DNA of 64,000 nt from contig NC_068561.1 of the NCBI RefSeq assembly GCF_022201045.2, forward strand, positions 18,664,501 through 18,728,500. The letters are read 5' to 3'. The stretch is from Citrus sinensis. Its lineage: Eukaryota; Streptophyta; Magnoliopsida; Sapindales; Rutaceae. Position 1 is the first letter of the stretch. Every line of letters begins with the position of its first letter. A model generated the notes under the pieces. That model was not told where the DNA came from. It saw only the letters and a list, made by a program, of their open reading frames with translations, and ran no database searches. Of this stretch, positions 16,972-39,174 are shown piece by piece. The position numbers and the translations under genes were made by a program.

Positions 16972-18668
16972 GAAACAGAATAAAAAGTGCTTTGTCTATA
17001 GAATTCTTCATCTCTCTGTTTGAAAATTTTCAGGTACAGTATCAAGACACCCATATATTACAAAGTTCGTGCAGATATTCATTAGTGTTTGAAGTATTAG
17101 TGACTTATTGTACGTTCAAGGGACCTAGCATGTAATTAATTGTAACTAAATTAGAATACCTAAATCTGTACTAAAACTTTCTATGTGGAGAAGAATCAAG
17201 GCAAAATTATTTTATATAATAGTCGTAAAAATTTAAGAGGCAAAGCAACAAATATTGTGACACTTAAACATGCAGTCATTAGAAGGGATTTCCACAATAT
17301 TTGTGTCTTAAAAATTTTCAAATTATTCTTCAGCTTTCTTTCTATCAATTGAGAGCTCTGCACTCTTGTTTTATTGCCTGATAAATCTTTGAGGCCTATG
17401 GGTGCCTGCACAAGAAAAGAAGGCTTGTCAAGTTATCTTGATAATCTGGGTGCAAAGTGCCTTTATTGGAAACTTATTTTAATAGATTGCCGTTAGTTAC
17501 ATGTTAGGAAAAATATTCTTAATATTCACGAAAATTTTATATCAAGGAACTCAGTACCCTAAATCATTAACTTTCAATTAATTACATCTTAGATGAAAAT
17601 TCTTAATATTCATGGAAATTGTATATCAAGAAACTGAGCACCCTCAATCATATGCATTTTTTAAAACTAGAATATATTATATTGGTCAGTTAATAATTTC
17701 TCCCTTTTGTTCTTGTATTGATCACATCTTGTATCTAGAATAGGGCTATAATAAATTAGATAATTAGATTCTTTAAACTCACTCATGATTATATCTAGGT
17801 TGCCACCAATTATCATGCTGAAAGATTTTCTTTGGTTGATGCGTTTTCACTTTAAAGAAAAGTTCTGCAACTATGCAATAGTAGCAGTAGAAATTCACCT
17901 GTTGCAATCAGCAACAGAGAATAGGGCCAAATCGATGTGGCACTCTCTGGAAAGATCTGAAATTGCACTTTCCTTGATGTTTTCAAAGTAAGAATTTGCT
18001 TCTCTCAAACATTTGCACCTCATTAGCTCATCGGCTGCAGTTGACGAAGTCATTTCCACAATCACTTTAGTGCCACTACAACATGAAGGCAATGGCTTCG
18101 AGTCCTTGCTACTCAAGTAAGCATAGCAGTTGCGAACAACTGGTGCAATGCGAGTGCACTCAAATACGTCTGGACTGATTTCCCTAGTTCCCAGTCACCT
18201 TGAGCTGGCACCACTGCCCAATTCATTGCTACTATCAGGAGTAAAAATGATGCTACAAAGCCCTCCATGGTATTTAATTTGGTTGTTTTGTGGGCTTCAA
18301 GTTTGGAGTGAGCTTGACAACAAATATACGAAGTTTGCGTAGCCTTAAAGAAACTTATGAAGCAAAAAGGATGAGGTTGTTAGTTTGTTATAGCAATATG
18401 CCCAACAATATTTGTTTCTGCCTGGCTTAAAAAGAAAAAATTTATGGTTATGATGACATGTGTACACACACCTGTCCTGTCGTCATCATTTTATCTAATT
18501 GTTATTTTAGAAATGATGGGGCTTTGCTCTGCAGCTGAGAGTGAGATAGATGGATAAGTGAGGTAAGCCAGGAGGAGTTTTTGCAGTTCTTAGAATTTTC
18601 GGTCCAATTTCCTGTTCAATTTAGCATTAGGACCATGGATTGCTTTTCTGGCAGTGTTTTTATTTAAT
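16972..18668. other. Intergenic, FANCD2 3' region and unassigned sequence
   Basis: The first few hundred bases are presumably the FANCD2 3' UTR. Positions 17785-18340 contain short open stretches and splice-like junctions but no family I recognise. I call no gene here. Confidence 0.4.
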
Positions 18669-19185
18669 TTACCAGCTTTTCCAAATTTCTAGATGATCAA
18701 CCATCAGGAGCTGCAGCTTCTTCTGCCAGTTTCTTCCACTGTGGCCTTGTTTTTCATTTGCTAACTCTTTATCTCCCTCTCTCCAGCTTGCCAACTTCTC
18801 CACTTCAATTCTCTTCACTTCGCTAATCTCCAAGCCGTCGCACCATTCTACGCAAGTAGATTTACAATTTGTCATTTGATCTCCCTCAAAAGGCCAACAA
18901 GTCTATTGCACTCCAGCAGATAGAATCTCAGTCATTGAATTCCACTGAGTTAAGATCATCCTATTGACGGGTGGTTGGTTCAAAGCTCTAACCTCAATAT
19001 CAGACAGGAAATCTGCCCTTGTTATTTATCTATAAAATTTGGCGATTGCTATTAACAAGTCCTATTACAACATCAATAGGTTATTGCTTTGTCAGAACTG
19101 CAATGCTGCCAAAATTTATACAAATCACGAGAAGACACTCTTTATAAACTGGAATCTTACTCGACCAATCTGATTCTGGTTGCAC
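18669..19185 (-). pseudogene. UGT85-like glycosyltransferase pseudogene (exon 2 fragment)
   Basis: Translation of the minus strand gives a degraded UGT C-terminus: TNCKSTCVEW, then IEVEKLASW, GNWQKKLQL-type text equivalent to the TNCRYTCNEW...EVEKLVREL...EWKKLAEEAAAP stretch of the neighbouring genes. Further 5' (18900-19185) only scattered matches to the PSPG region and to the FGS...KQQL segment remain, with deletions, frameshifts and stops. Exon 1 is absent. It is the most decayed UGT copy and marks the left edge of the cluster. Confidence 0.8.
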
Positions 19186-19225: not shown

Positions 19226-19640
19226 CAACACTTTTTGTTTTTGTTTTTGTTTTGGGGTGTTGATGAAGACTTCGTGTCCCAGGAGCAAAATACTCACTGG
19301 CTTTGTTTGAACTATTGATCATTGATTGTTAAATGCAGGCACCAATTGGTTAAATGAGTACAATCAGTAATGGTAGAAAAAGGTTCAAGAGTTCGAATTC
19401 CACTTATATTGGTGGAGAAGAGAATTGGTTACCATCCTATAAAACTCTCAATCAATTTTATCACCGGTTGCTCCTGTGAGAAGAGATTAACCAATTGGCT
19501 TATTCTTTGAGGAATTTGTTCGACATAAAATATGAACCAAATCCAGATTCTGACGAAAGGCTGAACAACAATTGGACTATCCTTCTGGAAAAATATCCAA
19601 TTTCGCTTTGACATGCATATGTATTAACATAATCCTTCCT
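19226..19640. repeat. 3' flank shared with the 31.8-kb UGT gene; tRNA-like motif inside
   Basis: The text gttgatgaagacttcgt...caaaatactcactggct recurs at about 31448-31510, showing that the downstream flanks of the UGT genes at 19749 and 31826 are duplicated together. About 19335-19425 also carries weak pol III box-like words (gagttcgaattcc as a B-box-like sequence), so part may be a decayed SINE. Confidence 0.6.
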
Positions 19641-19748
19641 GATCTTAAACACTAGTACAACCATCACTTTTAAAACAACAAGAAGATCAAGCTCCCATAA
19701 TTCAGTACCACAATGGAAACTTTAAGCTTATACTCCTCATTGGATGCA

Positions 19749-21297
19749 TTAGTTTTTGGATGGTATGAGCCCTTTTGATAAAAGAACTTGGTTCACCAAT
19801 TTTTCCAAATTTGTTGCAGAGGATCCGTCCGGAGCTGCAGCTTCCTCTGCAAATCTCTTCCACTCTGAGGCCTTGTTTCTCATTTGCATACCTTTCTCTC
19901 CCTCCATCAACTCTCCCACCAGCTTCTCAACTTCATTTCTGCCTACTTGATTATCATCTCCACTATTAGTGATGTCCATTCCAACCCCCCATTCATTGCA
20001 AGTATATCTACAATTTGTTGTCTGATCTCCCAAAAAAGGCCAACAAATCATGGGCACACCTGCACATAAACTCTCAATCGTTGAATTCCATCCACTGTGA
20101 GTAAAGAATCCTCCGACTGCTGGGTGGTTCAGAACCTCCTCTTGTGGGCACCATCTTGCGATAAAACCTGTTTCTTTAGCTTTAACCTCAAACTCAGATG
20201 GCATATCTGCTGTCTCACCAGTAACAAGATCAGGCCTAATTATCCATAAAAATGGGCGATTGCTATTAACGAGTCCCATTGCAACCTCAGTAAGTTGCTG
20301 TTTTGTCAGATATACAGAGCTACCAAAATTCACATACACCACCGAATTGGGTAATTCCTTGGAATCAAGCCATTGGAGACACTCTGTTTCTTCTTTCCAA
20401 AGATTGTATTTGTATCCAGTGGAGCTTAAACTGTTGCCAACTTGTTCATTAATTTGATTGAGAAGAAGCTGGAGTGGACCGATGGTGAATAAATTCGGAA
20501 ACACAGCAGAGAGAGCATCCAAAACTTGTCGTTCCAGTGCATCAAATGTATGAATAACTACAGCTGAAGCTTTAGCTGCATTCTTAGCTGCTTCAATGGC
20601 TACCCTTGTTGCGTAGCTATTCAAATCTGTAATTTAACACAGTTAAATTCAATAAATATATAAATTATTAATTCAGTAATGGTAGAGGTCGCAAAATCTT
20701 TGTACAAACTATTGGGTACAAACTGAGGTGACATAAGAGGATTGGTTGAATAATTAGTCTGAGCTTACCTATGAGTGACGTAAGAGTAGTGTTTTCTTCG
20801 AGTGTCCGGAGCTGCATACATCCTTTAAAACTACGTGCGGCGATAGTAAAAAAGAGGGCGATAGGAATTCCAAGTTGTTGAGCAGCTGTGACGGTGAATG
20901 GCATGAAACCATCTGAAATGATACAATTGACTGAATTTGAAGAACTTTTGAGTTTTTGGAGCAGGTCAAGAAATGGCTGCAGCATGACATTATTAGTTAT
21001 GGATTCAAAGAGAGAGTTTGCATCTTGATTGGCGTTTTCATTTGAGGGATCTGGAAGGCCATCTGGGATAGTTTCATATTGAAAGTTGAGCAAGGCATTT
21101 TCTAAATTAGAGTTATGGCGTGGTGAAGATCTTGACTTGAGATAGCGTCTGTGATTGAACTCAGTGTTGACAAAAGTTATGTGAAAACCTTTGAGATGAA
21201 GAAGCCTTGCGAATTTAAGCATTCCTTTTATGTGACTTTGAAATGGGCATGGGATACACACTGCATGACCTCTGTAAGTATAATCACAACCTTCCAT
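19749..21297 (-). CDS. UGT85-like UDP-glycosyltransferase, internally shortened (gene A)
   Basis: Family 1 glycosyltransferase transferring sugar from a UDP-sugar to small hydroxylated acceptors in the cytosol; the acceptor is unknown. Exon 1 is 21297-20769 (529 nt), intron 142 bp (GTAAGC...TTACAG), exon 2 20626-19749 (878 nt); total 468 aa. ATG 21297 is chosen because the protein then starts MEGCDYTYRGHAV like its paralogues; an upstream in-frame ATG at 21333 would add 12 residues. Probable catalytic His is H22 in FQSHIK; the partner Asp lies in CIISDGF. The PSPG donor-binding box is about residues 335-378, [10 protein letters not shown] to FLGDQ, with HSGWNS in place of the usual HCGWNS. 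Odd: the start of exon 2 lacks about 35 residues, including the DWIPGM...RDLPSF segment present in the paralogues. The frame is intact, so it may be expressed, but the fold could be compromised. Confidence 0.85.
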
Positions 21298-24218: not shown

Positions 24219-25947
24219 TTAGTTTGCAGATGGAATTGATGAGTTGTGCTTATTTGATAAAAGAATTTCATTCACCAGTTTATCCAAATTTAGAGAAGAT
24301 GAGCCATGAGGAGCTGCGGCTTCTTCTGCCAATCCCTTCCACTCCATGGCCTTGTTTCTCATTTGCTTTCCCTTCTCTCCCTCCATCATCTCTCTCACCA
24401 ACTTCTCCACTTCATTTCTGATCACATCCTCATCATCACCATTAATCTCCATTCCAACCCTCCACTCGTTGCAAACGTATCTACCATTTGTGGGTTGATC
24501 TCCAGTGAAAGGCCAACAAATCATAGGAACTCCATTACATAAACTCTCAACTATTGAATTCCATCCACAGTGAGTTAAGAATCCTCCAATTGATGGGTGC
24601 TTAAGTACTTCCTCTTGTGGGCACCAACTTGCTACAAAACCTTTTTCCTTAGCTTTAACTTCAAATTCAGCTGGCAAATCTGCTGTCTCACCAGTAACAA
24701 GATCAGGCCTGATTATCCATAAAAATGGGTGATTGCTATTTACGAGTCCCATTGCAACCTCAATAAGTTGCTGCTTATTCATAAATATAAAACTTCCGAA
24801 ATTTACATAAATCACAGATTTGGGTTCCTTGCAATCGAGCCATTGCAAACACTCTGTTTCTTCTTTCAATAGATTGTAACCAATAGAGTTTAGCATACCA
24901 TCTTGTTCTTCTGTTTGATTGAGAAGAAGCTGAAGTGGGCCGATGGTGAATAAATGATGAGGAAACATAAATGAGAGAGCATTCAAAACTTGTTGTTCCA
25001 ACGCATCGAACGTATGAATAATAATTGCTGAAGCTTTGGATGCATTTTCGGTTGCTTCCACGCACAAGTTGAACATCATATCTTTCGGATCTGTCGATTG
25101 AATAAAACTTGGAAGATCTCTAATTCGGATATCCTTCATCCCTGGAATCCAGTCTATAAGACTGTTCAAGTACTCTTTCGTAAGACAGCTTTTGTCTGCA
25201 AGTACTCAAAAATGAATTAATTCTTTGCTTCCGTCTGCATTCATATTTATACTTGATCGCCAGTGATTCTATGTCACGGCCACTAAAAATTTAAAGTAAC
25301 ATAAATTTAATCCGAAACATTACAAAAAAACATTGAAAATTAATTAGTGCCCAAGGTAGTGATCCCGGAAAAATTGAAAAAAAAAAACAGAAAAAGAAAA
25401 GTTCTGATAATTGCATACCTTTGACTGGGAAAAGACCCTTTTCTTTGAATGTCTGAAATTGTTTAAATCCCATGAAACTACAAGCGGAGATGGTAAAAAA
25501 CAATACAATAGGAAGTCCGAGTTGTTGAGCAGCTGTTATGGTGAAAGGCAAGAAGCCATCTGAGATGATGCAGCTGACAGCAGGATTAACGCTATTTGAA
25601 GAATCATTGAGTTTGGCAAGCAGGTCAAGAAATGGATGCAACAAGACATTATTTATGATGTTTTCACCGAGAGAATACGCGTCTTGAGCAGTGGGGCTTT
25701 CATCTGAAGAAGCTGGAAGCCCATCTGGGATTGCTTCGAATCGAAAACTGGGCAAGCCATCTAAAGAATGTTGGCCTCTTGCTTTGAGTAAGCGTCTGTG
25801 ATTGAACTCTGTGTTGACAAAAGTTATGTGAAAACCTTTGTGATGAAGAAGCTTTGCCAGTTTAAGCATTGCTTTTATGTGGCTTTGAAAGGGGCTCGGG
25901 ATGCAGACCGCATGAACCTTGCTACAAGCTTTAGGTTTTGATTCCAT
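24219..25947 (-). CDS. UGT85-like UDP-glycosyltransferase, intact (gene B)
   Basis: Exon 1 25947-25419 (529 nt), intron 223 bp (GTATGC...TTGCAG), exon 2 25195-24219 (977 nt): 501 aa, the usual length and one-intron structure of the UGT85 family. Probable catalytic His23 lies in FQSHIK and its partner Asp130 in CIISDGF. The UGT85 signature DWIPGM...IRDLPSF is at about 191-207. The PSPG box spans W367 to Q410 with the canonical THCGWNS. Family members glucosylate terpenoid, cyanogenic or phenolic alcohols; nothing in the sequence fixes the substrate. It heads a block shared with the gene at 31826 and faces away from a plus-strand UGT fragment at 28424, so the pair was once divergent. It is the best candidate in the cluster for a normal enzyme. 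Confidence 0.92.
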
Positions 25948-26177: not shown

Positions 26178-26186
26178 TATCCAATA

Positions 26187-27321
26187 TAATTTTCATTTTA
26201 TTTTGTTTTTCCCACCGTCCATTGAAGCCCGACTGAGCGAGACTTTGTCATTAAATAATGTTTCACTCATTGATCAATTTAATTATATGTTTTTTCAAAT
26301 TTAATATTATTCAATATAGCGAAATTTTATTTAAAGAATCTCGATTATGTGTCTTTTAAAATTATTATTTCTGATGTAACGAAGTGAAATCACTCATAAA
26401 GAATTTTTTATAATTGCACTTGCACTCAGTTTTATGTTCTAAATGATATATCTAACTCATCACCCATGGAAAAAATTGTAAAATTAAAAACAGCATGACA
26501 AATATTATTGATAGATGATGAGTTTTTTAGATGCAATAATAATTTTTTTAAATGCTTGTAAGTTGTAACATCAAAGTGGTATATTTATATTGGAGTTGTG
26601 GATTCCAGTGCATTATGTTTATAATAAAAACTAACCGTATCATATTTGTCTTGCCTAATTCTATCTTAATCATATTGATTTGATTAGATCTAGTCAGCGA
26701 TTGTTTCTTTATAAAAGAAAGTGGACAAATGAGTCTAATTGGATCTTAATGGCATTAATTTGATTAGATCTAATCAACGATTTTTTTATTTATAATAAAA
26801 ATAACTGGACAAATGATACACATTAAAGATACTGGAATTACAAAATCGATCTGTAATAATAATTTGTCCACATGCTATATTAAATTTGAAAACTATAATT
26901 AAATTGGTCGATATGAATGAAACATTAGTCAATACATTATTCAATGGCAGAGTCTCGCTAGTCGGATATGGATGGTGGGAAAAATAAAATAAAATGAAAA
27001 ATATTTAATTAAATTATTTATTTAATTTGTTTAAACTATAAACTAAGAGAAATATTTATTTAGTTGAGGTACTTAATTTACATCGAATTGGTATGTTATT
27101 AATGAAATTTTTTATAAGGTACAATAATTCATTATCACTTGAACCAATCAAATAATGACACATTGTTTACTATAATTATTAGATACACTATGTATCATAA
27201 TTAAATAAATATAACATTATTGACAAACTAAACTACTCCGATGTGGCTTTTATTTAGCTTTAGTGAATATGTACCGTATATGAAAAACTAATGAAAATCA
27301 ATGAAGTGGGTTTGGGATGCG
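26187..27321. other. Spacer of the duplicated UGT block (copy 1)
   Basis: Collinear with the spacer at about 33590-35455 (for example aaatgtttcactcat, tctatcttaatcatattgat, atgaaaatcaatgaag). No gene is seen. It presumably contained the two divergent UGT promoters. Confidence 0.75.
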
Positions 27322-28217
27322 TAGGGATGACAATAGGTATCGCCTGCAAGGTATCATTACCAAATTTATATCCATACAAAGTTTAAATTATCAAACTCAC
27401 CCTACTATATGTTTTAATTTTTTTAAGAAAATCCACCTGCTGCGGGTTTTGACAATTACCAAACCCGCAATGGTATCCGGCGATTATTTTACGGGTTTCT
27501 ACATTTAAAATCACAAATGGTCAAAATGTAAATTTATAATAATGACCTATAATTCCACATAAATGTAAATGGAAAATTAAAATTTCAACATCAATCCAAC
27601 ACAAATTCTCAAATTTAAGTATAAAATACACAAATCTATATATATAAAAAAAGCCACAAACTAGTATCTAAACATAATAATTATCATTTCATATTATTAT
27701 TCAACACAAACTCCAAAAGAAGATCTTCATTTCGTTCACCACCACTAGCACCCATCTAACACGATTCCTACAATAATGATTAAGATTAATATTTTCTAAA
27801 GAATAATGCATTTTAAATGCTAATCCATGCATTAAGTTAAAGAAAATTCAATCATAATTATAATAAGTATATTTTTAGATTTAAATATTTTTCTATTCCT
27901 ACAATTTGAAGAACAAAATTATAACAATGAAATAATCCATGCATTAAGTTAACGAAAGTTCAATCAGAATTATAATAAGTATATTTTTAGATTGAAATAT
28001 TTTTCTATTAAAATTAAATTAAAAAATAATTAAAAAAATTACGGTTGGCGGATATCCATACGGGTATCCGTAGGATATTTGGGTAATACTAAACCCAACC
28101 GCAACCTAGTGCATATTTTAATTTATAATACCAAACCTGTCTACAACCCACAAAATTACCTGAGCGGATTTTGGCGGGTGGGTTTAAACGGATTTGTAGG
28201 TACCATTGCCATCGCTA
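27322..28217. mobile_element. Non-autonomous hAT-type element, 896 bp
   Basis: Ends TAGGGATGACAATAGG and, inverted, TAGCGATGGCAATGG; 8-bp TSD GGGATGCG (27314-27321) versus GGTATGCG (28218-28225). The paralogous site at about 35455-35470 (gagcttggtatgtgcggc) has one copy, confirming insertion. Inside, about 27820-27896 and 27930-28010 are direct repeats of each other (ccatgcattaagttaa...). It encodes no transposase. Confidence 0.88.
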
Positions 28218-28423
28218 GGTATGCGCAGCCAAATCAGATTTCTAATTCAAAACTCGGAATGCAACTTGCCCACGACTAATTTCGTCAACTTTTGCTAGTT
28301 AGTCAATTTAACAAAATGATTAAATGACAACTTTCCCATCTTATCCATTCGACCACCTTCAATTTTCATTTTCTTTTTCATTATAAGTAGTTCGCACAAG
28401 CTTTGATGAAGTAAATAAAGAAA

Positions 28424-28948
28424 ATGGAAGCTAATACATGTGGTTACAAGTCTCACGCATTTTGTTTTCCTGGCCCAGGTCAAAGCCACTTAAACTCCAT
28501 GCTTCAATTGGCAAAGCTTCTGCACCACCACAAACAGAGGCGGATTTACCATAGGATCACTGGGGGCTCAAGCCCCCACGAAAAAAAAATCTCTATTTCA
28601 TAAAAAAAATTAACATATTTTTAAATAGTCTTGTTAAATTATTAGATAGTTCCATCCGTTAAAATTTAAATTATTATTTTATTAATTACAAAAGTTATAC
28701 TTTGATTTAAAAATCAAAACCCACAAACTAAAATATTTATAGTTTTTAATTATTGAATTGTGGATGCTACATTTTAACTAGAGATTGCAGTAAATAAAAA
28801 AAAATTACATTCAAGTTTTCAGTTTTTATGTCTAATTATTATTTAATTTAGCCCACGGTAAATTATTTTTTTACATCTAACCACAAAAGTTTCCGCATAA
28901 CTTCTGTAAACTTTGAGATCGTACGCAAACGCTGTCTCGAATCAAGCG
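28424..28948 (+). pseudogene. UGT85-like 5' fragment interrupted by a hAT element
   Basis: Starts at ATG 28424 and reads MEANTCGYKSHAFCFPGPGQ, then SHLNSMLQLAKLLHHHK, the N-terminus of a UGT in frame up to the insertion at 28535. Homology resumes at 28888 (agtttccgcataacttctgtaaac...) and stops abruptly at 28948 where unrelated antisense UGT sequence begins. A TATA-like cattataagtag lies about 40 bp upstream of the ATG, identical in the paralogue at 35664. Everything 3' of about codon 60 is gone. Confidence 0.85.
28535..28879. mobile_element. Non-autonomous hAT-type element in UGT fragment, 345 bp
   Basis: 8-bp TSD ACCACAAA at 28527-28534 and 28880-28887; the undisrupted site is in the paralogue near 35768 (caccaccacaaaggtttcc). 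The left end is CAGAGGCGGATTTACC and the right end in inverse is TAGATGTAAAAAAATAATTTACC, so the TIR is imperfect. A tggggg/cccccac foldback lies near the left end. Non-coding. Confidence 0.82.
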
Positions 28949-28950
28949 GC

Positions 28951-30581
28951 CATCCCTGGAATCCAGTCCATAACTGAGTCCAAATACTCTTTTTTAAGAC
29001 AGCTTTCATCTGCAAATTAATTAACACAATAACTGAATTAATTCTCAGCTTTTGACAAGTAATTAATAGGTAATATGACCACCAACCTGTGCGCTGGTAT
29101 GTTTGGATTGATGAAATCAAAAAAGAGGAGAGGAGAGGATTTGAGAAAAGTAGAAATAAATAAGGGAAGTAAAGATGATTCCATGTTAAGCCAACTAAAT
29201 GAAATTGAGATTGACATCCTCTTTTACTCATTTTTTCTCCTACTCTCTCCTTTCTATTCGTCTCTTCTCCTCCTATGTTTTTCAACCAAACAAGCTATTT
29301 TTAAATACCCCAGACCCAGAGCATGAAAAATTATAATAGGAATGTTGAAATGTCCTAGTACGACAAAAAACTTGAAATTTTTTTTACCTTTTAGTGGGAA
29401 AAGACCCTTTTCTTTCAGTGTCTGAAATTGTTTAAGTCCCTTGAAACTGCAAGCGGAGATTGTGAAAAACAATGCACTAGGAAGTCCAAGTCGTTGAGCA
29501 GCTGTAATGGTGAAAGCCATGAAGTCATCTGAGATGATGCAGCTGACTGCAGGGTTAACATTATTTGAAGAATCACTGAGTTTGGCAAGCAGGTCAAGAA
29601 ATGGCTGCAGCAAGACATCATTTATGATGTTTTCACAGAGAGAATACATGTCTTGAGTAGTGGAGCTTTCATATGAAGAAGCTGGAAGGCCATCTGGTAG
29701 GGGTGGGCACGGGTCCGATTGATTATCAACCCGACCCAACCCGCATGTAGAATGGGTTGAAAATTTTCAATCCGACTCAACCTATTACATATCTTGACCC
29801 AATCCGTAGTTTTGCGAGTTGGGTCAGGTTGGGTTGATTGGGTTGAACTTTTGAAAAAATCTATTTTTATAATCTAATTAAATAGTGAATAAAAATTAAT
29901 TAATTAATTAAAAAAACTAAAAAATATAAATATTAAAATCTTTAGAACAAATCCAACATTTCAAAGTTTTTATATTTATATTTTTTAATTTTTATATGAA
30001 ATATCAAAATTTATATAATAATTTTTACATACATACAGGTTGACCGGTTGGATGAGGTTAATTGAATTGAGCTTTTGAAAAAATCTATTGTTATAGTCTA
30101 ATTAAATAGTGAACAAAAATAAATAAATTAGATAAACTTAAAAAATGTAAATATTAAAATCTTTAGAACTAATCCAACATTTCAAACTTTTCATATTTAT
30201 ATTTTTTAATTTTTATATAAAATATCAAAGTTTATATAATAATTTATATATGTAAATATATAGGGGTTGACGGGTTGAGTTGAGTTAAAAAATTTTAACC
30301 CAACCCAACCCGCAAAAAATCACACGAGTTGGGTGGGTTGATGCCCACCCCTACCATCTGGGATTGCTTCGAATCGAAAATTGGGCAAGCCATCCAAAGA
30401 GTGGTGGCCTCTTGATTTGAGAAAGCATCTATGATTGAACTCTGTGTTGACACAAGTTATGTGAAAGCCTTTGTGATGAAGAAGCTTTGCCGATTGAAGC
30501 ATTGCTTTTATGTGGCTTTGAAAGGGGCTTGGGATGCAGACTGCATGAACCTTGCTACAAGCTTTTAGCTTTTGATTCCAT
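28951..30581 (-). pseudogene. UGT85-like pseudogene split by a hAT element (copy C)
   Basis: The minus strand from ATG 30581 has a one-base insertion within the first eight codons (aaagctaaaagc versus aaacctaaagc), giving a stop. Out of frame it continues [20 protein letters not shown] and so on. Exon 1 is interrupted at 29698-30353 by a transposon and resumes with GLPASSYESSTTQDMYS to KEKGLFPLK, followed by a usable donor. Of exon 2 only about 20 codons remain (to DWIPGM-type text) before the breakpoint at 28951. The PSPG half is missing, so it is non-functional. Confidence 0.92.
29698..30353. mobile_element. Non-autonomous hAT-type element with internal 224-bp duplication
   Basis: Perfect termini TAGGGGTGGGCA / TGCCCACCCCTA; 8-bp TSD CCATCTGG at 29690-29697 and 30354-30361, and removing one copy plus the element restores the UGT reading (ccatctgggattgcttcg as in genes B and D). 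The core holds two copies, offset 224 bp, of a unit beginning near cttttgaaaaaatctatt (29847 and 30071). Subterminal zones are packed with gggttg/caaccc words. No ORF. Confidence 0.93.
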
Positions 30582-31825
30582 CTTGATCTCTTCTCTCTAT
30601 GTCTTTGCAATTAATGATCTAAAAGTACTAAAACGAAAAGTATTGCATCTAACTAAACACTGAGTTCACTCACACATTTACAACCTTTCTTACCTTATTT
30701 AATTTGGAGAGAGTTAATGAGTACGTATATATTAACTTAAAAAAAAAATTAAAGTTGGTTGGTATGAATGGTTCAGCACCCTAATTTCTTAAGAGAGGTC
30801 AAGGGTTCAAGCCCCGCTCTCATATGTACGTATATGTACTAAACTAATTAATTAATGTGTGTATATACTAACCTAATAAAAAGTAATGTCTTTCCCAAAT
30901 ATCTCATGATTTTTCAATAAGGGAATTAAATGCACTCATGCCATAAGTCGGGTGGTGAACACTCTTTCCTCTATGGTGGAGGTATAATTAAGCTGGAGTG
31001 TCTACGAGGGACTCATCCTATCTCATAAATATCATTTGAGTAGGATAAATCACGTTTGTATATATGATCTAGGTAGACCTCTAAATTATACTAATGCAAA
31101 GATATTGCCATATAAAATTGAAGTAAAAACAAAAACTTACGAATCACCTTACCAGTAATTCAGGTAGAACTAATAGCACATTCACATGCATGGAATATAT
31201 AGCACATATATATGTCAACTAATAAAACTTTAATAACTAACCAATTTGGATTTGAGAGAGAAAGGAGCTATACAATAATGTAAAATGATGAGTTTTTAGA
31301 ATGATAAACTTCAATTTACACTCTATTTAGAATGATAATTTGTAATTAACCTCAAAAATGGGAAAATTTTATTTTACCTCATTTACTGTTAAGAAGACAA
31401 AAAGAAAAAAAAAATCATCAACGTGTCTCTTATTTCTCCTCATCTTTTAGTTTACGTTTTGGGTTGTTGATGAAGACTTCGTTTCCCAAGACCAAAATAC
31501 TCACTGGCTCAAACTGATTATGTTTTAACTATTGAACGTTGATTGATAATAAAATGTGGGTGCATGTCAATTGGTGGTTCAATGGGTAAAATCCGTTAAA
31601 TCTCCAATGGTGGTATGAGAAGGTTACTCATATTTGAGGAGAGGATTTTGGTTACAAGAAGTGGACTGTCCTTTGAGAAAAAAACATTCAACATATTAAC
31701 ATAATTCTTATTAATCTTATGCACTAATACTCACCAACAATTATTTTAAAAATGATAAGAAGACCAAGCTCTCATAATGCAGTACAACAATGAAAACATT
31801 TAATTTACACTCCTCATTGGATGCA
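30582..31825. other. Intergenic, with a tRNA-like SINE candidate at ~30745-30830
   Basis: About 30750-30825 reads ggttggtatgaatggttc ... gggttcaagccccgc on the plus strand, resembling pol III A and B boxes of a tRNA-derived SINE head; no TSD was secured. The rest, up to the flank shared with the 19.7-kb gene (from 31448), has no gene. Confidence 0.5.
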
Positions 31826-33483
31826 TTAGTTTTTGGACGGTATGAGCCCTTCTGATAAAAGAACTTGGTTCATCAATTTTTCCAAATTTGTTGCAGAGGA
31901 TCCATCAGGAGCTGTAGCTTCCTCTGCAAATCTCTTCCACTTTGAGGCCTTGTTTCTCATTTGCTTACCTTTCTCTCCCCCCATCAATTCTCTCACCTGC
32001 TTCTCAACCTCATTTCTACTCACTCGATTATCATCTCCACCATTAATGATCTCCAGTCCAACTCCCCACTCGTTGCAAGTGTATCTACAATTTGTGGGTT
32101 GATCTCCCAAAAAAGGCCAACAGATCATCGGCACACCAGCACATAAACTCTCAATCGTTGAATTCCATCCACTGTGAGTAAAGAATCCTCCGATCGCTGG
32201 GTGGTTCAGAACCTCCTCTTGTGGACACCAACTTGCTATGAAACCTTTCTCTTTAGCTTTAACCTCAAACTCAGCTGGCAAGTCGGCCGTCTCACCAGTA
32301 ACAAGATCAGGCCTAATTATCCATAAAAATGGGTGATTGCTATTTACGAGTCCCATTGCAACCTCAATAAGTTGCTGCTTATTCATAATTATAATACTTC
32401 CGAAATTTACATAAATCACAGAGTTGGGTTCCTTGGAATCGAGCCATTGCAAACACTCTGTTTCTTCTTTCAATAGATTGTAACCAATATAGTTTAACAT
32501 ACCATCTTTTTCTTCTATTTGATTGAGAAGAAGCTGAAGTGGGCCGATGGTGAATAACTGAAGAGGAAAAATAAATGAGAGAGCATTTAGAACTTGTTGT
32601 TCCAATGCATCGAACGTATGAATAATAATTGCTGAAGCTTTGGATGCATTTTCCGTTGCTTCCACGCACAAGTTGAACATAATGTCTTTTGAATCAGTCG
32701 ATCGAACAAAACTTGGAAGATCTCTAATTCGGATATCCTTCATCCCTGGAATCCAGTCTATAAGTCTGCTCAAATACTCCTTCGTAAGACAGCTTTTGTC
32801 TGCAAGTGCACAAAACCGAATTATATTTTTGCTTCCGTCTGCATTCATATTTATACTTGATCGCCAGTGATTCTATGTCACAGCTACTAAAGATAACATG
32901 AAAAAACATTGAAACTTTGATTCCAGAAAAAGGAAAAAGAAAAAAGAAAAATACCATTGACTGGGAAAAGACCTTTTTCTTTGAATGTCCGGAATTGTTT
33001 AAATCCCATGAAGCTACAAGCGGAGATGGTGAACAACAGTACAATAGGAAGTCCAAGCTGCTGAGCAGCTGTAACGGTGAAAGGCAAGAAGCCATCTGAG
33101 ATGATGCAGCTGACTGCAGGATTCACAATATTTGAAGAATCGTTGAGTTTGGCAAGCAGGTCAAGAAATGGATGCAACAAGACATTATTCATGATGCTTT
33201 CACAGAGAGAATACATGTCTTGAGTAGTGGAGCTTTCATCTGAAGAAGCTGGAAGGCCATCTGGGATTGCTTCGAATCGAAAGTTGGGCAAGCCATCCAA
33301 AGAGTGTTCGCCTCTTGATTTAAGAAAGCGTCTGTGATTGAACTCTGTGTTGACAAAGGTTATGTGAAAGCCTTTGTGATGAAGAAGCTTTGCCAGTTTA
33401 AGCATTGCTTTTATGTGGCTTTGAAAGGGGATCGGGATGCAGACCGCATGAACCTTGCAACAAGCTTTAGGTTTTGATTCCAT
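31826..33483 (-). CDS. UGT85-like UDP-glycosyltransferase, intact, mosaic (gene D)
   Basis: Exon 1 33483-32955 (529 nt), intron 155 bp (GTATTT...CTTGCAG), exon 2 32799-31826 (974 nt): 500 aa. Probable catalytic His23 in FQSHIK, partner Asp130 in CIISDGF, UGT85 motif DWIPGM...IRDLPSF, PSPG box about 367-410. From the N-terminus to about GFIASWCPQEEVL it is nearly gene B; from there on (NHPAIGGFFTHSGWNS, CAGVPMICWPFLGDQ, ending EGLIPSKN) it is nearly gene A, and its 3' flank also matches that of A. This points to recombination or gene conversion inside exon 2. Like gene A it carries HSGWNS instead of HCGWNS. Probably an active enzyme; acceptor unknown. Confidence 0.92.
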
Positions 33484-34194
33484 CTTGATTCTCTTCTCTC
33501 TCAAGGCCTTTGCAACTAATGATCAACCTTCCATTAGCCACGAGTTAAATTTCCATTATCCAATAAAATTTTCATTTTATTTTGTTTTTCCCACCAGCCA
33601 TTCAAATCCGACCGAGAGAGACTCTGTCATTAAATAATGTTTCACTCATCAACCAATTTAATTTTATGTTTTTCCAAATTTAATGATAGTCGATATAGCG
33701 AAATTTTATTTAAAGAATCTCGATTATGTGTCTTTTTAAATTATTATTTCTATTGTGACGGAGTAAAATCTCTCTTAAAGAATTTTTTTTATAATTGCAC
33801 CTACGCTCAGTTTTATATTCTAAATGATATATCTAACTTGTCACCCATTGATTAAATTGTAAAATTAAAACATTACTACACACGACAAACTGATAGATGA
33901 TGAGTTTTTATAAATGTAATAATAATTTTTTTAAATGGTTGTAAATCGCAGCATCAACGTGATATATTTATATGAGAGTTGTGGATTCCACTACATTATT
34001 TTTATAATAAAAGCAAACCATATCATATTTGTCATGCCTAATTCTATCTTAATCATATTGATTTAATTAGATCTAGTCAACAATTTTTTCTTTATAATAA
34101 AAGAAAGTGGACAAATCAGTCCAATCAGATCTTAATAGTATTGATTTGATTAGATCAAATCAGTGATTTTTGTATTTATAATAAAAGTAAGTAG
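33484..34194. other. Spacer of the duplicated UGT block (copy 2)
   Basis: Aligns with 25948-26820 minus the 142-bp MITE there. No gene seen; it includes the promoter side of gene D. Confidence 0.75.
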
Positions 34195-34210
34195 ACAAAT
34201 GATACACATT

Positions 34211-34552
34211 GTTTTTAAATATTGATTGCATATTATATTATTATATTATACAGATATTTATAATTGTTATAACAGTAGATGATTGTACTAATATTTACAA
34301 TCAAATATATAAATGAGATTTTACATTATTATATTAAATTCTATAAAGTATATGTCTAGACAACTAATCATCACAGACGAGAGATGTTTATGCTCCACTC
34401 GCATTTTGTAAGAAAAAAAACTTGCAAATAAACTCCACACAATTATACTTAATTAAGGGAGGTTGAGTTTATGGGAACTCAAATCACTACTCTCATAGTT
34501 ACGCTTAACTTTGAGGATAGTGATTCACCATTTGGCCAAAGATCAAGTGGCT
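34211..34552 (-). mobile_element. SINE-like insertion with 16-bp TSD
   Basis: Exactly bounded by the 16-bp direct repeat ACAAATGATACACATT (34195-34210 and 34553-34568); the paralogous spacer at about 26815 has it once. Read on the minus strand the element begins AGCCACTTGATCTTTGGCC with an A-box-like TTGGCCAAATGG and a B-box-like TGATTTGAGTTCCC, and ends AT-rich at 34211. Long TSD plus pol III boxes indicate a tRNA-derived SINE, a different family from 23691 and 38111. Confidence 0.8.
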
Positions 34553-34942
34553 ACAAATGATACACATTAAACATACAGAAATTGCGAAATCAATCTGTAT
34601 AGCCACATGCTGTATTAAATTTGAAAAACTATAATTAAATTGGTCAATATGAGTGAAACATTAGTCAATACATTTTTCAATGGTAGAGTGTCCCTCTAGT
34701 CAGATATGGGTGGTGTAAAAAAATAAAATAAAATGAAAAATATTTAATTAATTTCTTTGGCTATAAACTAAGAGTAATGTTTCTTAAGTAGAAATACTTA
34801 ATTTGCATCCCAAATGGCAAATGATACATTATTAATGAAATTTCATCATTTGAATCAGAAGCGATAAGGTGTAATAATTAATTATCGGTTGAATTAATCA
34901 AATAATGAAACAATATCTACTATAATTATTATATACAGACTC

Positions 34943-35336
34943 TGTTGAGAATACAAATTATGAAGAGTCAACAGTTGACCAACAATTGACGCAAAGGCCA
35001 TGCTGGCATGCCACTCGAGCAATCATATCCAGCAACCAACTGATGCAGATGATGAATTGTATTCAATGAGTTGGCAAAACTGTTATGCTGAGGAATATCT
35101 GCAAGCTGGAAATTCTAGAAGCTATTCAATGATTGGTTGATGTAGCTAAGAATTTGTCTTATTCATTTTTGCTACCCCCTTGAGCAAGTTATCATTTTTC
35201 CTCTGCTCAAGTATAAATGTGTGAACACCATGTATATTTCGATCATTCAAGTTATAATATTAAATGAAGAATGTTTGTTTTCAGCTCTGCTTATTTGCAT
35301 GCTTAAGCAATTCATAAGAATTTAAGTGACTCAACA
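34943..35336. mobile_element. Solo-LTR-like insertion, ~394 bp
   Basis: Present here but absent from the collinear spacer near 27190. It begins TGTTGAGAATAC and ends GTGACTCAACA, i.e. TGTTGA...TCAACA inverted ends typical of Copia-type LTRs, with a TATA-like caagtataaatgtg and a following aatattaaatgaag. No clear 5-bp TSD was found, and no internal retroelement genes are present. Confidence 0.6.
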
Positions 35337-35663
35337 TCCTAATTACATAAAACATAACATTATTGACAAACTAAAGTGCTCCTACATGGCTTTTATTTAT
35401 CTTTAGTAAATATGTATCATATTTGAAAAACTAATGAAAATCAATGAAGCGAGCTTGGTATGTGCGGCTAAATTAGATTTCTAATTCAAAACTCGTAATG
35501 CAACTTGCCCACGACTAATTTCGTCATCGTTTTGCTAGTTAGTCAATTTAACAAAATGATTAAATGACAACTTTCCCATCTTATCCATTCGACCACCTTC
35601 AATTTTCATTTTCTTTTTCATTATAAGTAGTTCGCACAGGCTTTGATGAAGTAAATAAAGAAA

Positions 35664-37237
35664 ATGGAAGCTAATACATGTGGTTACAAGCCTCACAGTT
35701 TGTTTTCCTTGCCCATATCAAAGCCACTTAAACCCCATGCTTCAATTGGCAAAGCTTCCACACCACCACAAAGGTTTCCACATAACTTTTGTAAACTTTG
35801 AGAACGTACACAAACGCTGCCTCGATTCAAGCGTTCATAAACTCTTCAGAAGAAGAATATGGCTTCCCAAGCTTTAGATTTGAAACACTCCCGGATAGTC
35901 TTTTACATCGATCACAACAGGGCGTTTATTCTTTTCGTAAATTAGTTAGAAACAATATGATGTTGGATAAATTTCTTGATTTGCTCACCAAACTCAACGA
36001 TTCTTCTTCAAGAAATGGCAATCAACCCGCAGTGAGTTGCATAATCTCAGATGGGTTCATGCCATTCACTATTGAAGCTGCTCAACAACTTGGACTTTCT
36101 GTTGTTATGTTCCTCACCATCTCTGCTTGTAGTTTCATGGGATACAAACAGTTTCGGACTCTCAAAGAGGAAGGGCTTGTACCACTCAAAGGAAAAAGAC
36201 AGAAAAGATTCATCTTCAATTCTGAAATATACCCATTAATTTAATTCTACTTGTGTTAATTAATTTGCAGATGAAAGCTGTTTTACAAGAGAGTATTTGG
36301 ATACTGTTATTGACTGGATTCCTGGTATGAATATTCGAATAAGGGACCTTCCAAGCTTTTCTCGAATAACTGATCCAAATGATCATATGTTTAACTTCAC
36401 CTTGGATTTAGCTGAGGTTGCATCTAAAGCTTCGGGAATTATCTTTCATACATTTGATGCATTAGAAGTACAAGTTTTAGATGCTATCTCAGCTATGTTT
36501 CCGAATTTATTTACCATTGGACTCCTTCAGCTTCTTCTCAATCAGGTAGAACAACAAAATTGTACGTTGAATTCTATTGGATACAATCTGTGGAAAAAAG
36601 AAACTGAGTGTTTGCGATGGCTTGATTCAAAAGTACCCAACTCTGTGATTTACGTAAATTTCGGAATCGCTATAGTTGTGAAGAAGCAACAATTTATTGA
36701 GGTTGTTGCAATGGGACTTGAAAATAGCAATCACCCGTTTTTGTGGATAATTAGGCCTGACCTTGTCACTGGTGGTGGTGACACAACAATGTTGCCATCT
36801 GAGTTTGAGGCTAAAGCTAAAGGAAAGGGTTTTATAGCAAGGTAGTTCCCACAAGAGGAAGTCTTGAACCACCCATCAATCGGAGGATTCTTAACTCACA
36901 GTGGGTGGGGTTCAACTATTGAGGGTTTGTGTGCAGGAGTACCTATGTTTGTTGGCCTTTCGAGGGTGATCAAATGACTAATTGTAGATACACTTGCAAG
37001 GAATGGGGCGTTGGCATGGAGATCAATGGTGATGAAGATAGGATTAGAAATGAGATTCAGAAGTCGGTGAGAGAGTTACTGGAGGGAGAGAAGGGTAAGC
37101 AAATGAGAAACAAGGCCTCAGGGTGGAAGAAATTGGCAGTAGAAGCTGCAGCTCCTGATGGACCTTCATCTAAAAATTTGGAAAAGTTGGTGAATGAAAT
37201 TCTTTTGCCAAAAGAGCATATACCAGCCGAAATTTAA
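35664..37237 (+). pseudogene. UGT85-like pseudogene, nearly full length (copy E)
   Basis: A plus-strand UGT with the family exon layout but several lesions: a small deletion after codon 10 (frameshift near 35695), another frame change near 35835, the exon 1 donor changed from GGT to GGA at 36194 (caaaggaaaaag), a premature TAG at 36843 replacing the first Trp of the PSPG box, a one-base deletion near 36945 (cctatgtttgttggcc), and GWGS for GWNS. The acceptor gcag before exon 2 (36271) is intact. Recognisable segments include GFPSFRFETLPD, CIISDGFMPFT, DWIPGMNIRIRDLPSF and VNFG. It corresponds to the truncated copy at 28424. Confidence 0.93.
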
Positions 37238-37317
37238 TACACTGCAATTTGGATGAATAAAGTTAAGCGTCTTAATTGTATTGCTTGTTGATGTTGTAAT
37301 ATAAACTTTTTGGTAAT

Positions 37318-38341: not shown

Positions 38342-39062
38342 ATTTTGATGCATGAGAGGGGCAAGTTTTGGATGCCTTCTCATCTATGTTTCCAAATTTA
38401 TTTTCCATCTTTCCACTTCAGCTTCTTCTCAATCAAACGAAAGAACAAGATGGCATTTACACTCCAAGGAACCCAAGTCTGTCATTTATGTAAATTTCGG
38501 CAGTGTTATAGTAATAGCAAAGCAATAACTCATTGAGGTTGCTATGGGACTTGCTAATAGTAGTCACCAACTTTTATGGATAAATGGGTATGACCTTGTC
38601 ACTAGTGACACAACAATTTTGCCATCAGAGTTTGAAGTTAAAGCTAAAGGAAAGGTTTGAATGTTTGATAGCAACTTCAATGTCTACAAAAGGAAGTTCT
38701 GAACAACCCATCAATAGAAGGATTCTTAACTCACAGTGGATAGAATTCAACGATTGAGAGTTTATGTACTGGCGTGCCCATGATTTGCTGGCCTTTTGAG
38801 GGAGATCAAATGTCAAATTGTAGATACACTTGCACTGAATGGGGTGTTGGCATGGAGATTAATGGTGATGAAGATGTGAAAAGAAATGAAGTTGAGAAGT
38901 TGGTGCGAGAGTTGATGGAGGGAGAGAAGAGTGAGAAGATGAGAAACAAGGCCATCGAGTGGAAGAAATTGGCAGACGAAACTACGGCTCGGCGTCTACA
39001 AATTTGGAAAAGCTGTTAAATGAAATTCTTTTCTCAAAAGAGCGTTTGCAAACACAAAATTG
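38342..39062 (+). pseudogene. UGT85-like pseudogene, exon 2 remnant (copy F)
   Basis: Begins with a decayed TFDALE equivalent, then AFSSMFPNLF...QLLLNQTKEQDG, a deletion, and SVIYVNFGSVI. Stops and shifts follow (for example AKQ* near 38527). A longer stretch reads [32 protein letters not shown] and EVEKLVRELMEGEKSEKMRN up to the C-terminus, where a deletion removes the APDGSS region. Exon 1 is absent. Non-functional. Confidence 0.88.
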
Positions 39063-39174
39063 ATACAATCAACTTGTATGAATTTGATGTCAACTTCTGT
39101 CATAAGCTTAAGAATTATGTTAACATTTATGTTACTACAACCAAAATACCAGGTTTCTAAATATATCCCGAGAA

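Follow-up and report, generated by a model that had tools for sequence, protein, structure and literature searches.

The coding region of gene D very probably arose by ectopic homologous recombination in a tandem array of UGT85 genes, with one switch in exon 2 that joins a B-type 5′ part to an A-type 3′ part. A first-pass annotation of the window, the whole 64,000-nucleotide stretch analysed here, had described D as a mosaic of its neighbours B and A that changes over inside exon 2. This description was upheld by synonymous distances that swap between the two parts, by a chi-square analysis of informative sites and by opposed trees. Recombination between A-type and B-type paralogues, by crossover or by conversion, is strongly supported by the Ks values and by the chi-square and AU tests. 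Recombination inside an exon of two tandem genes for enzymes of specialised metabolism would thus have produced a third, intact gene, which has evolved conservatively since.

Contig C6 (26.2 Mb), on which the window lies, belongs to the genome that was searched (299.7 Mb in 11 contigs). The UGT85 cluster spans 18.6–39.1 kb of the window, with an exon 2 remnant and genes A, B, C and D on the minus strand and E and F on the plus strand (Table 1). The spliced frames of A, B and D were open, all with GT-AG introns. Exon 2 of A was 96 bases shorter than that of D because A is without most of the stretch at the exon 2 start that is common to B and D. The stretch around WIPGMKDIRIRDLPSF, missing from A (19749–21297), was present in B, D and E; the frame of A was open and its splice sites were usable. 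Without this stretch, gene A may be losing function. In and after the PSPG box, gene B (24219–25947) carried CNGVP and NEWRVG, as against CAGVP and NEWGVG in A and D, and B may be drifting.

Other features of the window were also recorded. At 28948–28951, an E-like exon 1 fragment on the plus strand adjoins the C exon 2 start on the minus strand, forming an inverted rearrangement joint. Dispersed repeats were found between C and D at 30715–30828 and 31300–31450, with 36 and 4, respectively, among the 40 non-self genome matches listed. A 179-base sequence occurs twice in direct orientation at 336–917, the copies being 81% identical.

Table 1. Features of the UGT85 cluster and of mosaic gene D, in window coordinates
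Feature	Position	Strand	Details
UGT85 exon 2 remnant, downstream of A	18662–19128	−	
Gene A, parent type of the 3′ half of D	19749–21297	−	468 residues
Gene B, parent type of the 5′ half of D	24219–25947	−	501 residues, open
Gene C remnant, B/D-like	28951–30619	−	exon 1 pieces and exon 2 start
Dispersed repeat	31300–31450		A-like flank homology ends there
Second A-like 3′ flank block	31445–31549	−	79% to 19238–19332, K2P 0.138 (95 bases)
A-like 3′ flank of D	31694–31825	−	78% to 19622–19748, K2P 0.223 (127 bases)
Gene D, coding region	31826–33483	−	500 residues, two exons
D exon 2, whole	31826–32799	−	
D exon 2, A-type part	31826–32212	−	PSPG box from about residue 7, C-terminal tail, stop
Switch interval	32213–32275	−	last B-D derived site 32275, first A-D derived site 32213; residues 352–372
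D exon 2, B-type part	32276–32799	−	end of acceptor domain and first part of C-terminal domain; informative sites mostly B-like
Longest A=B identical run of exon 2	32282–32314	−	33 nt, beside switch interval
D intron, B-type	32800–32954	−	phase 1, GT-AG, 155 bases; D-B K2P 0.175
D exon 1, B/C-type	32955–33483	−	ATG at 33483, open frame, GT donor
B-like 5′ flank and upstream block	33484–35833		collinear pieces, reaching into E exon 1
D upstream piece	33557–34210		matches 26178–26824
D upstream piece	34553–34937		matches 26809–27187
D upstream piece	35336–35462		matches 27194–27319
D upstream piece	35453–35772		matches 28214–28534
D upstream piece	35765–35833		matches 28880–28948
Gene E pseudogene, used as outgroup	about 35660–37279	+	stop at PSPG box position 1, frameshifts
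Gene F remnant	38344–39083	+	exon 2 only

By its sequence, D is a UGT85-type plant family-1 glycosyltransferase gene. No internal stop occurred over its 500 residues, and the UDPGT domain (PF00201) scored 87.7 bits against a cut-off of 19.5. The nearest solved relatives, from the best 60 of 89 distinct sequences, were 2pq6 (E 5.6e-162), which we take to be Medicago UGT85H2, followed by 7zer (E 3.7e-115), presumably sorghum UGT85B1. Putative catalytic residues His 23 and Asp 130 were present, placed by analogy with the His/Asp pair given in the available part of PMC5397973. The structure of exon 2, predicted from three window proteins, had a mean pLDDT of 37.3, and the model was dropped.

Comparison of the exons showed a reversal in the resemblance of D to its neighbours. 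Upstream of 32222, D had 75 differences from B in 1106 exon bases and 231 from A in 996; within 31826–32222, the counts were 33/397 against A and 79/391 against B. Sliding windows of 100 exon columns, with at least 85 bases aligned across A, B and D, gave the same pattern. The 16 windows upstream of the switch had D=B identities of 0.91–0.98 and D=A identities of 0.68–0.90, while the eight downstream had 0.76–0.85 and 0.85–0.94, respectively. The first-pass annotation had assigned exon 1, the intron junctions and the early part of exon 2 to B. This was borne out, except that in exon 1 the fragmentary gene C was almost as near to D as B was: over 529 bases, differences numbered 38 for B-D, 48 for C-B and 51 for C-D, and the C+B grouping in the exon 1 tree had a support of just 0.48. 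On these counts the 5′ donor is best called B/C-type. The A-like character proposed for the remainder of exon 2 and the 3′ flank agreed with the few differences from A there and with the flank identities in Table 1.

Synonymous distances were determined by the Nei-Gojobori method with bootstrap 95% ranges, using 457 of the 500 D codons (41 had no counterpart in A and 2 had none in B). In the 5′ part, Ks was 0.19 (0.13–0.26) for D-B, 0.66 (0.49–0.83) for D-A and 0.59 (0.46–0.77) for A-B. In the 3′ part, the values were 0.25 (0.14–0.38) for D-A, 0.63 (0.42–0.96) for D-B and 0.67 (0.42–0.96) for A-B. As the A-B distance was uniform and both D distances swapped, D is the recombinant, rather than A or B.

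The same division was found in the order of informative sites. Across 331 such exon sites, the best split left 224 of 245 sites B-like upstream and 19 of 86 downstream, with a maximum chi-square of 156.8. The highest value in 20000 permutations of site order was 26.4 (p = 5e-5, the floor for this number of permutations). Restriction to well-aligned exon 2, omitting exon 1 and the poorly aligned start of A exon 2, left 148 sites and the same split (57/62 versus 19/86; chi-square 70.3, permutation maximum 23.1). Sites were also polarised with E, itself a pseudogene, as the main outgroup. These comprised 53 B-D, 5 A-D and 6 A-B sites on the 5′ side, and 22 A-D, 3 B-D and 2 A-B sites on the 3′ side, where the segment is only 397 bases long.

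Trees of the two segments placed D with different sisters. In the 5′ segment D grouped with B (ultrafast support 100), and in the 3′ segment with A (ultrafast support 94; FastTree 0.999). An AU test among three fixed topologies rejected the A+D pairing for the 5′ segment (p 0.0006) and, for the 3′ segment, the pairing B+D (p 0.0025). The placement of A, B and E among themselves was weakly supported in both trees. The trees took in E and the UGT85 loci L050–L053 (contig C5) and L055 (C7), with F in the 3′ tree only, C in the exon 1 tree only, and the remnant at 18662–19128 in none. From the ten outgroup loci, L056–L059 were left out as too distant (25–39% protein identity); L054, in which no exon 1 was found, was kept out of the trees yet entered in the exon 2 site table. 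Among the best-scoring candidates of a genome-wide DNA search, the best full-length match was B for the 5′ part of D and A for the 3′ part. No relative closer to D was found outside the cluster among these candidates, where identity to D did not exceed 77%. Mosaic members such as D can be misplaced when whole UGT genes are put into a single tree.

The switch interval, bounded by outgroup-polarised sites (Table 1), overlaps the stretch of 32220–32330 in which the changeover had been placed from the letters alone. Discounting each single boundary site gave a cautious interval of 32192–32378. The likelihood of the split was at its maximum at 32275/32270, with alternatives within 2 lnL up to 32345. 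Besides the long A=B identical run next to the interval, a further run of 17 bases was present at 32230–32214, and such runs are natural places for pairing. A two-breakpoint model gained 5.5 lnL, the extra break merely separating a final stretch without B-like sites. The B-like patch at 32069–32099 contains six sites, of which three were private to A by outgroup majority, two were common to B and D, and one was ambiguous. From this pattern, a second small exchange at the patch may or may not have occurred.

The flanks of D follow the parent type on each side. B-like sequence continues from the 5′ end to 35833, and A-like sequence from the 3′ end to 31445. When the DNA 3′ of D was compared with the 3′ flank of B, no return to B-like sequence was seen, just short, weak matches (12–30 bases, best E 0.010). 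The A-like tract shows a single boundary, at the switch; its left end is hidden by the dispersed repeat at 31300–31450. Divergence between D and B (K2P) was 0.144 in the 5′ flank (647 bases), 0.157 and 0.150 further upstream and 0.175 in the intron. Lower values were obtained for 72 bases by the start codon (0.073), for 35453–35772 (0.052, 319 bases) and for 35765–35833 (0.110, 69 bases). One age fits most of the non-coding comparisons, at 0.14–0.18 for D-B and 0.14–0.22 for D-A, the D-A pieces being short and three D-B pieces lying lower.

One of these pieces was a separate observation. The segments 28214–28534 and 35453–35772 are two copies of the 5′ end of E and its upstream region, with 99% identity over 167 bases, and their K2P of 0.052 compares with 0.14–0.16 in the larger adjoining pieces of the same duplicated block. 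A genome search for this sequence found no places beyond these two. The low divergence perhaps reflects a second, younger exchange or a conserved promoter.

These observations can be assembled into a mechanism. A B-type gene would have contributed the 5′ flank, exon 1, the intron and the first 54–60% of exon 2, and an A-type gene the remainder of exon 2 together with the 3′ flank. An unequal crossover, or a template switch during replication with the same outcome, would have produced an A-3′/B-5′ fusion. This fusion would later have come to stand in tandem beside an unfused copy. The second step is needed because, in a B × A crossover, only the chromosome from which the intervening DNA is lost carries the fusion. 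We consider this sequence of events, crossover or template switch followed by tandem placement, moderately probable. The simplest account is a single exchange event that left the flank of either parent on its respective side.

The main competitor is gene conversion, in which D would be a full tandem copy of the B block that A later overwrote from 32275 to 31445, about 0.83 kb, or further. A and B both survive, which a non-reciprocal copy would explain with no further rearrangement. The B-like sequence that runs upstream as far as 35833 also shows that the B block was copied as a segment, and the repeat conceals the left end of the tract, where a second boundary may lie. Under conversion, however, B-like flank would resume beyond the A-like tract, and no such return is seen. 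The similar ages on the two sides would in addition have to be accidental, although the age intervals are broad and not all pieces conform. We regard conversion as possible but short of probable. A crossover-like origin is favoured over long-tract conversion, though not decisively, because D keeps the 3′ flank of A as far as it can be traced and has just short, weak matches to that of B.

Explanations that leave D undisturbed or unreal fare much worse. The weak grouping of B with E and F in the 3′ tree (59) would suit a replacement of the 3′ half of B by a more distant paralogue. An undisturbed D should, however, keep a uniform distance to A, and its Ks to A fell from 0.66 to 0.25 while that of A-B was 0.59 and 0.67. 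The best full-length match to the 5′ part of D was also B itself, and this reading is very unlikely. Tandem paralogues are a usual place for assembly errors, which raises the question of a chimera of A and B reads. A real chimera would be nearly identical to its sources, whereas D had 75/1106 differences from B and 33/397 from A, with private changes in both parts, and its flanks and intron differed from the sources by 5–19%; an assembly error is accordingly given almost no credence. The PSPG region is conserved in general, so that likeness to A there might reflect unequal constraint or chance with no recombination at all. The signal lies, however, in synonymous sites, the intron and both flanks, and the split of the exon sites was not matched in any permutation (p = 5e-5), making this equally negligible. 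Recombination between a B-type and an A-type gene remains the preferred explanation.

The PSPG box of D comprises 44 residues, W367–Q410, running from Trp to Asp-Gln. Plant UGTs carry this box in the C-terminal domain, as 44 residues from Trp to an acidic residue and Gln, according to the available text of PMC11096472. D differed from A at one of the 44 positions and from B at eight, with nine differences between A and B. Positions 22, 43 and 44, which the same part of PMC11096472 ties to sugar recognition, were identical in A, B and D (Trp and Asp-Gln). A change of sugar donor in D is for this reason not expected, and D is expected to use UDP-glucose. At box position 41, A and D share Leu, whereas B has Thr. 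As far as the accessible portion of PMC11096472 reports, a UGT74AN2 mutant at positions 41 and 42 and a third residue showed donor changes. An effect of the A-type Leu at box position 41 on substrate use by D is conceivable.

The mosaic had been read as a natural domain swap, joining the acceptor-binding half of one UGT to the donor-binding half of another. This holds in that D has an A-type PSPG box and a B-type N-terminal domain. The joint, however, lies within the C-terminal domain, around the start of the PSPG box, away from the boundary between the domains. The domains of UGT74F2 are given as 1–245 and 246–449, with the UDP-glucose site at 332–362, in the available section of PMC5397973. 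By offset from the UGT74F2 numbering, and not from a structure of D itself, the joint (residues 352–372) falls roughly 60–90 residues into the C-terminal domain. As an exchange of donor halves, the claim is likewise only partly sustained: position 41 is A-type, but positions 22, 43 and 44 do not differ between A, B and D.

D's own branch carried 19 non-synonymous changes in about 1083 sites and 24 synonymous changes in about 288, which gives a per-site ratio of about 0.2. Within the short 3′ part, 9 non-synonymous and 7 synonymous changes were counted (ratio about 0.33). This conservative pattern of change points to coding constraint on D after the fusion. The predicted function, as judged from the protein family, is that of a UDP-glucose-dependent small-molecule glucosyltransferase, with an acceptor preference expected to be mainly B-like because the N-terminal domain is B-type. 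It is also conceivable, if unlikely, that D kept its A-type PSPG and C-terminal end on a B-type acceptor domain since the combination made a useful new enzyme, while A decayed. If so, the rate, regioselectivity or substrate range would have changed, for example via the Leu at box position 41, and D would represent a natural part-rescue and new function by recombination. Since both parent types still adjoin D, the effect of the joint on enzyme function is directly testable.

Tandem paralogues regularly give rise to mosaic genes through unequal exchange or gene conversion, and D is a new example of this well-documented, ordinary way in which gene clusters evolve. Laboratory domain swaps similarly join two UGTs in one enzyme, and such a swap between UGT74F1 and UGT74F2 was reportedly described by Cartwright in 2008; D, in contrast, is natural and has its joint inside the C-terminal domain. 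The solved UGT85 relatives (2pq6, 7zer) resemble D in their nearly full-length matches, 44-residue PSPG box and catalytic His/Asp, and differ from it in that D was assembled from two paralogues. In open-licence literature, as far as its available text extends, no report of a natural UGT85 mosaic was found, and the accessible parts of PMC7402084 and PMC7871599 do not describe UGT mosaics. Gene conversion was not predominant in the vertebrate Ugt1 and Ugt2 clusters, according to the available part of PMC1885805, so exchange events in UGT clusters are worth recording. Gene conversion of duplicated genes, as treated in the available parts of PMC3924818 and, for rice, PMC2277409, would give the same mosaic outcome, but in D only one tract boundary is visible. 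The CYP21A1P/CYP21A2 chimeras, as presented in the accessible part of PMC3161346, also join neighbouring paralogues by homologous exchange within the coding region. Those chimeras are disease alleles, whereas D is an additional gene, old and diverged, that has been retained next to both parent types.
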